From assembly GCF_007993815.1 (NCBI RefSeq), contig NZ_VJWE01000012.1:1-64000 (forward strand): 64,000 nucleotides of DNA. The letters are read 5' to 3'. The notes beneath the pieces were generated by a model. That model was not told the DNA's origin and searched no databases. It saw only the letters and a list, made by a program, of their open reading frames with translations. Below are positions 61,156 through 63,188 of the stretch, piece by piece (position 1 is the stretch's first letter; the number at the start of each line of letters is the position of its first letter). A program made the position numbers and the translations under genes. Source of the stretch: Acidovorax delafieldii (GTDB lineage: Bacteria; Pseudomonadota; Gammaproteobacteria; Burkholderiales; Burkholderiaceae_C).

Positions 61156-61219
61156 GTTTGAAGCGTTTTGGGGCGGGTGCGCTAGTGCAATATGCCTGGA
61201 TTGCTATCAAATAGATAGT
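61156..61219 (-). repeat. 64-bp dispersed repeat, copy G
   Basis: On the minus strand it begins ACTATC, with GATAGC at positions 12-17 and the core CTAGCGC (forward 61179-61185) at positions 35-41. It lies just upstream of the 169-bp inverted-repeat element. Confidence 0.78.
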
Positions 61220-61260
61220 GATTGACGCAGCTGCCCGTGGCCCCGGGGGGGGCTGCTCCA

Positions 61261-61429
61261 TAGGGACCCTCTGCACGAATCACCGCGTCGTGTGCATCAG
61301 CGGGCTCGGGCGGTCTGCAGCGTTGCAAATACTCGCAATAGCTACGGCTATTGCTGCGTTTTGCGCCTTGCAGCCCCTCCCGCTCCGCTGCGCTCACTTG
61401 GCCAGCGAGATTCGTGCAGAGGGTCCCTA
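61261..61429. mobile_element. MITE-like element with perfect 21-bp inverted ends
   Basis: TAGGGACCCTCTGCACGAATC begins at 61261 (first 20 bases shown up to GAAT plus C at 61281) and its exact reverse complement occupies 61409-61429. The interior folds on itself: GCAATAGC (61335-61342) pairs with GCTATTGC (61347-61354), inside CTGCA/TGCAG and GCAAA/TTTGC pairs. No coding capacity. The outermost TA on both sides could be a TA target duplication. The GntR stop codon lies in the right end. Confidence 0.72.
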
Positions 61430-62101
61430 GCGGTCGATGATGCGCCGCGCAAAGCGCTCCAGGTACTCCATCAGCTGCTCCGCGCCCGCCACGGCCTGGG
61501 CCTCGTCGCCACTGGCAATGCCCTGCGCCAGTTGCATGTGCGCGCGGGCACCCTCTGACACCTCGCCTTCGTGCTGGTAGGCGTACCAGAAGCGGCGGCA
61601 CTGCACGATGAGCGGTTGCACGCATTTGACGGCCGAGTGGTTCTGGCTGGCCTGGTGGGTGACGAGGTCCAGCTCATGGTCGGCCAGCATGTAGTCGTCG
61701 AGGTGGCCGCGCGCTGCGGCCTGCACCATGTTTTCCGCACACCGCACGATGGCCTGGCGCTGCGGCGCGGTGGCGCGGCGTGCGGCGTTGGAGGCCAGCA
61801 GGCGCTCCAGCACGCGGCGGGTCTGGATCACGTCCAGGTGGTCGGCCAGGTCGATGTGCGACACCAGCAGCCCGCGCCGGGGCTGCTGCACGATGAGCCC
61901 GATGGACACCATGCGCAGCAGCGCCTCGCGCACCGGTGTGCGGCCCAGGCCCGTGCTCTCGGCGATCTCGGCCTCCACCACGGGGCTGCCGGGCTGCAGC
62001 TGCAACGTGGAGATCATGGTCTCGATGGCGTCGTAGGCCACGTCCGCCGCGCGCCGCTTGGGCGCGGGGTCTTGCTGGGGGGAGGGGCGGCGGAGTGTCA
62101 T
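61427..62101 (-). CDS. GntR family regulator, FCD (FadR) type
   Basis: A 224-residue regulator. The winged helix (about 10-80) contains GLGRTPVREALLRM and the wing RRGLLVSHID. An all-helical FCD ligand domain follows, with the metal-binding pattern ADHELDLVTH. MTLRRPSPQQD is the family-like start. It lies 67 bp after the TRAP binding-protein gene on the same strand, so it probably controls the TRAP operon. The TAG stop lies in the end of the 169-bp element. Confidence 0.9.
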   Translation of the reverse strand: MTLRRPSPQQDPAPKRRAADVAYDAIETMISTLQLQPGSPVVEAEIAESTGLGRTPVREALLRMVSIGLIVQQPRRGLLVSHIDLADHLDVIQTRRVLERLLASNAARRATAPQRQAIVRCAENMVQAAARGHLDDYMLADHELDLVTHQASQNHSAVKCVQPLIVQCRRFWYAYQHEGEVSEGARAHMQLAQGIASGDEAQAVAGAEQLMEYLERFARRIIDR

Positions 62102-62168
62102 CGGGCGTGAAGGACGTTGCGGGAGGCCGCATCTTATGGGATGCGGCCCCGGTGACGCTTGCGGACTG

Positions 62169-63188
62169 TCAGAGGCTTGCGCCCGCCTTGCGCAGCTCGG
62201 CAATCTGCGGCGCCTTGGGCAGCCACAGCTTGTCGAACTCCTGGATGATGCCGTCGGGGTTGAACGACGATGCCGTCTTGAAGGCGATGGACGTGCCCTT
62301 GAACTTCTCGATCAGCCCGGCCTCGGTGGTCACGATGTCATTGATCTGCGCATCCAGCGACTGGGCCACCAGCTTGCGGATGATGTCCTTGTCCTTGGCA
62401 TCCAGCCCTTGCCAGATGCGGCCGGAGACCAGCGGCGCGAACGGCATGAACAGGGCGTTCATCTGCAGCAGGGCCTTGGCCACCTTGTCGAAGCGCTGGT
62501 TCCAGGAGAACTCGATGTCCGCCTCCAGCCCATCCACCTGGCCGTTGCTCATGGCGTCGAACACCTGGGGCGTGGGGATGGGCGTGGGGGCGGCGCCCAG
62601 CATTTGATAAAAGTCGCGGTACACGGGCGTGGGGTTGATGCGCAGCTTCATGCCCTTGATGTCGGTGGGCACGTTGATGTCCTTGGTGGAGAACACGGCG
62701 CGCATGCCGGTAATGCCCCAGCCCAGGCCAATGGTGCCGGTTTCGCGCGGCAGCACTTCGAGCAGCTTGGTGGCAGAGGGGTGTTTGACGAGTTTGGCCA
62801 CGGCAGGCGTGGAGCGCACCAGGTAGGGCGCATTGATGGCCGCGATGCTGGCCACGCGCGAGCCCAGCTCGGCGGCCTGGATCCAGCCCATGTCGAGCGC
62901 GCCGGACTGCAGCTGCTGCATCATCGCCGCCTCGTTGCCCAGCTGGCCCGAGTGGAAGACCGTGACGCTCAGTCGGCCATCGGTTTCCTTCTTGAGTGCC
63001 TCGCCAAACTGCAGCGCGGCGCGGTTCCAGGAGTGGCCCGCAGGCGTGATCAGCCCCAGGCGAAACTCCTTGGCATCGGCTGCACGTACCAGCGCTGGAA
63101 AGCCCAGCCCCGTGACGGTGGCAGCGGCCACGGCGTGGCGCTGGATGAAATGGCGGCGGGTGACAGTGTGGGCGGGCGTGGTCGTCAT
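62169..63188 (-). CDS. TRAP transporter substrate-binding protein DctP
   Basis: A 339-residue periplasmic binder. The signal has a twin-arginine motif (TRRHFIQR) before the hydrophobic stretch ending at VRA. The body shows DctP hallmarks: GLITPAGHSWNRAALQFGE, and GMKLRINPTPVYRDFYQMLG with the conserved Arg that binds carboxylates. The ligand is likely an organic acid; which one is not visible. It follows dctM by 58 bp. Confidence 0.92.
   Translation of the reverse strand: MTTTPAHTVTRRHFIQRHAVAAATVTGLGFPALVRAADAKEFRLGLITPAGHSWNRAALQFGEALKKETDGRLSVTVFHSGQLGNEAAMMQQLQSGALDMGWIQAAELGSRVASIAAINAPYLVRSTPAVAKLVKHPSATKLLEVLPRETGTIGLGWGITGMRAVFSTKDINVPTDIKGMKLRINPTPVYRDFYQMLGAAPTPIPTPQVFDAMSNGQVDGLEADIEFSWNQRFDKVAKALLQMNALFMPFAPLVSGRIWQGLDAKDKDIIRKLVAQSLDAQINDIVTTEAGLIEKFKGTSIAFKTASSFNPDGIIQEFDKLWLPKAPQIAELRKAGASL

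Follow-up and report, generated by a model that had tools for sequence, protein, structure and literature searches.

The usual definition of a MITE rests on its ends, the interior being regarded as free filler, and many MITEs have only these ends in common with their insertion sequence (IS). CTAG is a reported target of IS5-type elements, while the Correia/NEMIS-type elements are the usual example of IS630-family MITEs. IS-type terminal repeats and CTAG flanks do not form part of the description of a further class of repeats, REP/BIME. As presented in PMC2817692, REP/BIME repeats resemble the elements reported here in being dispersed palindromes of alternating orientation. The section of PMC3110155 on the repeat describes the beta-proteobacterial repeat element BRE as G+C-rich, 75-91 bp long, dispersed in Bordetella and Comamonadaceae with few copies in two Acidovorax, and often arranged in tandem arrays; neither ends nor a target are described there. 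QMITE2 of Coxiella, according to PMC5896051, is 150-190 bp in length, carries terminal repeats, lies mainly at 3' ends or in intergenic regions, holds a GTAG REP and is flanked by 7-11 nt duplications of variable sequence. A genome paper on Polaromonas JS666 is cited for MITEs in PMC10969869.

The element analyzed here lies in a stretch of 64,000 nucleotides at the start of an Acidovorax delafieldii contig (NZ_VJWE01000012.1; hereafter, the window). Like IS5-family MITEs, it is short and gene-less, its inverted ends match those of an IS5-family IS, and its family is flanked by CTAG; unlike them, it has an interior that does not come from the IS and that is common to elements with other ends, including ends matched to an IS630-family IS. 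In length, terminal repeats and placement it is similar to QMITE2, from which it is set apart by the GTAG REP and the variable duplications reported in PMC5896051. We estimate at about four in five the probability that it is an IS5-type non-autonomous miniature transposon with a portable core, moved in trans.

The initial annotation had placed perfect 21-bp inverted ends around a self-complementary, non-coding interior. The inverted repeat is exact (21/21) at 61261-61281 and 61409-61429, and with up to three mismatches it occurs only at those two places in the window and in none of 100 dinucleotide-preserving shuffles. Comparison with other copies showed that the three outermost bases at either 21-mer are copies of the target site, and the inverted ends are therefore 18 bp long and the element 163 bp (61264..61426), in agreement with the 163-bp consensus of 47 distinct aligned copies. 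The left terminal inverted repeat, GGACCCTCTGCACGAATC (61264..61281, plus strand), is an exact inverted match to the right one (61409..61426, minus strand). Flank comparison assigns ATAG (61260..61263), one difference from CTAG, as the left target-site copy and CTAG (61427..61430) as the right one; the left flank is likewise ATAG in G033, the sole other relative with the insertion. The 169-nt segment folds far better than its shuffles (−57.3 versus −31.5 kcal/mol on average; z −8.45; 0/200 as good), and none of the mechanically listed open reading frames of 60-150 codons that cross 61261-61429 resembles an independent gene. A 74-bp conserved hairpin core (61308..61381, minus strand) occupies the middle of the element; it is common to elements with other ends and is supported by covariation and by its match to R1, a covariance model built from 21 copies; the window core, itself one of those 21, scores 97.5 bits (E 1.1e-20). 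The element is thus short, devoid of a transposase gene, bounded by terminal inverted repeats and represented by several dispersed copies; a target duplication, imperfect at this copy (ATAG/CTAG), and loci lacking the insertion were also found. The original description of it as MITE-like is upheld by these further copies, by the presence in congeners of an IS whose ends are similar and by relatives that lack it at the locus.

Elements with these ends, designated type A, are represented by five copies in the genome of origin (5.02 Mb, 18 contigs), with 81-100% identity and one matching only partly. The type-A end, with up to two mismatches, was detected in 36 of the 47 congeneric genomes, this one included, and a reversed-pattern control gave 0 in all listed rows. 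In a named genome collection the exact end is present at 42 loci, 38 of which are called Acidovorax, the basis of the genus label used here. Six records of a plasmid collection match, and an annotated feature lies under the match in none. Among the 47 distinct type-A copies (a set that excludes L003), 17 have CTAG on both sides; it is present at the left of 24 and at the right of 24, and is missing from at least one side in 30. A TA duplication for the window copy was rejected in favor of CTAG, the commonest flank of the family; the TA dinucleotides noticed initially are its center. Some unusual arrangements of these ends were also encountered. In a Halothiobacillaceae MAG, a 334-bp type-A-like end pair (L050, 1787-2120) has CTAG at its left and an interior without a core match, and a 218-bp type-A element (L067, 6826-7043) contains two partial cores, perhaps an internal duplication. 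At G010:C8:228867-228913 and G022:C9:1254331-1254389 the type-A ends measure only 47 and 59 bp tip to tip; these are bare hairpins with no room for a core.

A search for a transposase gene between matching ends, as the initial annotation had suggested, led to an IS5-family IS with similar ends in congeners. In G011 (L027), type-A-like ends lie 1189 bp end to end around a 328-aa transposase, their tips differing from GGACCCTCTGCACGAATC at 3/18 bases on the left and 1/18 on the right. The transposase enclosed by type-A-like ends belongs to the IS5 family (NF033581, 319.6 bits, the cut-off being 140; DDE_Tnp_1 and DUF772 matches), and the IS is present in 11 copies at 99-100% in G011 and 12 at 93% in G023. 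Type-A-like ends were found at eight of 27 transposase loci (L180, L181, L183, L184, L185, L187, L188, L189), and ends of another type, B (GGCAACGCTGATTAAGG), at five (L200, L202-L205), where the transposases are 45-46% identical to that of type A; the remaining 14 have other, partial or no clear ends. At L195, L196 and L197, also in congeners, related IS5 transposases are accompanied by different IS ends (GGAAGGTCTGCAAAACC; GGGGCGAGCTTCAAAACTCC).

Searches of the element's own genome gave no match to PF05598 (control positive in 3/14 genomes), a marginal best match to an IS5 protein (E 7.4e-4) and, in a search run without a positive control, nothing with an IS630 protein. Because no autonomous partner was found in this genome, its copies are probably inactive at present and may be fossils. 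An origin of the element by internal deletion of the IS was likewise considered. No core match was obtained in L027, L180, L195, L203 or L205, and the one found at L183 lies outside the IS span; for the IS loci tested, the idea that the core is part of the IS was rejected, as R1 matches are absent from the IS spans. Given that many MITEs share only their ends with an IS, an interior missing from the IS does not bar the element from membership among IS5 MITEs.

At its right end the element adjoins an open reading frame for a GntR-type regulator (61427..62203, minus strand; TTG-started as listed, with an uncertain true start; the name is that of the initial annotation, agreed by eye). As had been noticed, the TAG stop of this gene lies within the right 21-bp repeat, the minus-strand reading of CTA at 61427-61429. 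Thirty orthologous GntR loci, that of the genome of origin included, were compared out of 39 genomes with any match, the others giving mostly short matches. The core is present only in the genome of origin and in G033, whose locus is 99% identical over the query, and absent from 28; at L176 only about 150 bases are available on the element's side, long enough to have revealed a core adjoining the stop. At each of the 28 element-free loci, GntR terminates at the same codon (TGA in 14, TAG in 9, TAA in 5), which refutes the proposal that the end of the element provided the stop. CTAG is found at the junction in none of these 28: the nine TAG stops have another next base, and three loci read TTAG. 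With CTAG at no empty locus, the pre-insertion target is one that we infer: the end of GntR would have formed a CTAG into which an IS5 transposase, acting in trans, would have moved the element, and the gene would have kept its own stop.

The same comparison bears on whether the segment is an ordinary conserved terminator between convergent genes, for which its strong hairpin and convergent neighbors would speak. Its absence at 28/30 orthologous loci led us to reject a terminator region; dispersed copies occur elsewhere, and by eye no T-run follows the hairpin, leaving this explanation with a negligible probability. The initial annotation had reserved it for a segment conserved in relatives and without further copies, and the opposite was found on both counts.

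Placement next to stop codons extends beyond this locus. The stop of an open reading frame of at least 150 codons adjoins 18 of the 44 type-A copies with enough flank, compared with 28/136 other CTAG sites at the same loci (Fisher p 0.0098), an excess that may reflect loss of insertions within genes and not a preference. Relative to the abutting gene the copies show no preferred orientation (the same in 8/18), and a bias towards it was discarded. In the genome of origin, the stop codon of an open reading frame of at least 120 codons lies no more than 3 bp from the assumed end in nine of the 30 core elements.

On the other side of the element, a 17-nt AT-rich inverted repeat (GCTATCAAATAGATAGT, 61203-61219) follows an aminotransferase-like gene. 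By eye, comparable repeats, many of them including a stretch like GCGCTAGCAGC, are present in the gap after this gene in most of the MITE-free relatives shown, and it therefore looks like an old feature of the gene's end. The different repeat annotated 41 bp from the element thus exists, but the insertion hot spot that it was thought to mark was rejected, since in most of those relatives, as judged by eye, the repeat is there without the element.

Matches to the element outside type A are, in its own genome, common to its middle only. With R1 (E ≤0.01), 30 matches were obtained in this genome, 27 of them within clear inverted ends of at least six kinds: A, to which a look-alike, A' (GGGATGTCCTGCATCACCC), is attached, B, C (AGTGTGCTGTCCCGCAAATA), E (GCGGGCTGAATCGGCGGG), F (AGAAGGTGTGAATGAG) and, confined here to longer elements, D (AGAGCCTGTTCAAGGTC). 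In 10 pairings of a type-A with a type-B element, identity is 0.84 over the core and 0.57 over the arms, the shuffled null being 0.47 (sd 0.05, largest 0.60), and across unrelated kinds of ends the cores sit at a nearly constant distance from the tips. The 74-bp interior is a portable module.

This portability reaches across transposase families. Type-C ends were found in 12 of the 47 genomes of the genus. At one locus, L268, they lie 1163 bp end to end, with TA flanks, around a 375-aa transposase of the IS630 family (NF033545, 247.6 bits, the cut-off being 100; DDE_3 match), and one end has one mismatch, the other two, to the 20-base type-C string; this single IS is the basis of the IS630 match of type C. 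The other type-C pairs are 162-163 bp long, and one is 173 bp. Among 30 type-C loci, a first set of 19 and a further five without a second end were scored, the other six being omitted as showing the other end of the same elements. A full R1 core match adjoins the ends at 17 of the 19, the exceptions being the IS at L268 and the 173-bp pair, and two core matches were obtained at the five; in total, the core is present at 19 of 24 loci tested, the IS itself being among the five without it. The cores of types B (IS5) and C (IS630) are 0.91-0.92 identical over their inner 53 nt. Such near-identity, together with the IS630 match of the type-C ends, implies that the same interior accompanies ends belonging to unrelated transposases. 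The type-C sisters are like IS630-family MITEs in length (162-163 bp), IS630-matched ends and TA flanks; unlike these, most of those tested hold the core of IS5-type elements.

These type-C relatives lend some color to the original assignment of the window copy to the IS630/mariner type with TA duplication, the more so as TA is central in CTAG and the flank of one copy cannot discriminate between the two. That assignment is nevertheless very improbable: IS630 ends and a TA duplication are features of the type-C sisters and not of the window copy, the IS with type-A ends is of the IS5 family, and CTAG, which is more than TA, is the commonest flank.

R1 searches detected the core in 96/150 genomes of the family (E 1e-3), 65/274 of the class and 41/299 of the phylum (E 1e-4), each tally including the genome of origin; these searches used stricter filters and scored few candidates per genome, so that copy numbers are lower bounds. 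The phylum search gave 28 positive genomes from outside the class, all but one of them from a single family. The layout of the elements was scored alike at 78 core loci (30 from the genome of origin, 23/27 from the family and 25/28 from the class, seven having been excluded for flanks that were too short): 42 are single-core, 27 double and nine without clear ends, a group that under the strict cut-off includes type-A L104 and L143 and type-B L130. Thirty-six of the 42 single-core elements measure 158-171 bp, and the 27 long ones 263-289 bp, with the far end always to the right of the forward core and never to the left. The scoring used set distances from the core and so partly imposes this geometry; a wider end search gave similar lengths for single-core elements. 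R1 recognizes a second, inverted core in 10/27 long elements, mostly 106-109 bp along, and by eye the second unit of type D has the appearance of a different or much changed hairpin. The long forms carry near-perfect end repeats of about 25-35 bp, which differ among L115, L117 and L119, three two-unit elements of about 263-270 bp in the genome of origin, each with its own repeat. Five candidate places for an autonomous element with two distant cores gave separate cores or close pairs, nothing convincing.

The two-core forms look like a repeat followed, after a linker, by its inverse, an arrangement that invites comparison with REP/BIME-type repeats mobilized by a tyrosine transposase of the REP-associated kind; the outer repeats would then be incidental. 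CTAG flanks and IS-matched ends argue against this; by eye, the known GTAG tag of REPs is not conserved in the core, nor do the elements show a GTAG-type tag and hairpin without terminal repeats. We give such an origin a slightly smaller chance still than the IS630/mariner assignment.

For an assessment of the core's secondary structure, 58 cores were aligned with MAFFT without fitting to any structure and compared with a hand-written 22-pair hairpin derived in part from these same sequences. Paired cells amount to 87.9% for this hairpin, 67.7% in shuffles and 32-44.3% in slid versions, and 20 of the 22 pairs have changes on both sides. Two motifs, AGGCG and GCAAC, face each other between the variable helices and are almost unchanged across the 58 cores, a pattern that suggests recognition of a folded strand, of DNA or RNA. 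The core may be kept through a function in cis, its folded DNA or RNA being bound by a widespread host factor, and may swap transposases by exchanging palindromic arms; we rate this at somewhat below an even chance.

Covariation of the helices and the proximity of copies to stop codons could also be accounted for if the core were a structured RNA, either a small RNA or a stabilizer of mRNA ends, carried on a transposon and selected via its effect on host 3' ends. The even orientation relative to abutting genes (8/18) speaks against such a role, and the CTAG target alone can give the placement at stop codons. No Rfam match at gathering score was obtained in eight loci, and of the lenient searches, which gave nothing of weight, one returned a microRNA match of 24.2 bits against a cut-off of 100 and another none. 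A selected RNA of this kind thus appears improbable.

A more serious rival, because the core of type A is scarcely better conserved than its arms (core 0.937; ends 0.945 and 0.970; intervening stretches 0.889 and 0.915), is that the core is a passive relic: the elements would descend from a common ancestral miniature transposon whose ends were replaced a few times, the hairpin being kept by correction between palindrome arms alone. Conversion between such arms could yield compensatory changes, and on a tree of the cores the ends cluster by type, with seven changes where the least possible is four and the shuffled mean 20.9. This tree, based on few columns, does not require that ends were exchanged repeatedly, and was set aside as a count of exchanges. 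Arm correction does not explain, however, why AGGCG and GCAAC stay near-constant in 58 cores amid freely changing helices, nor why lengths cluster near 163 and 270 bp, and we consider passive descent rather unlikely. Under our preferred reading of an IS5-type transposon with a portable core, the core would help the miniature element to persist or move, in cis, as a fold recognized by a host factor, and ends would be exchanged by recombination within the palindromic arms. A broader version of this proposal, to which we give less credence than to the cis function itself and only a little more than to passive descent, is that the core is older than any of its ends: a miniature element independent of any one transposase, a lasting unit in at least two classes of the phylum that would have switched between IS5- and IS630-type repeats, relying on a conserved host factor in cis, with a 270-bp plan of units about 106 bp apart.

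The window element itself is a further IS5-type MITE, a known type of element. What we did not find in the literature searched is one conserved, covarying interior common to IS5-type and IS630-type ends, nor any description of one core common to different ends. The closest published repeat is BRE. Likened by description and not by sequence to the BRE of PMC3110155, the core is similar in size, G+C-richness and host range; BRE differs from core elements in its tandem arrays and in having no ends or target described in the section on the repeat. If BRE is the core, the repeat was already noticed in 2011, with no ends, structure or partners given in that section of PMC3110155.

At the level of the locus, the CTAG target lets an element occupy a stop codon without lengthening the gene. 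At the level of the family, core elements invert the usual view of MITEs: the interior is conserved and covarying, and the ends vary, even across transposase families. This makes testable how gene-less elements survive beyond their transposases, and whether a host protein recognizes their interior.
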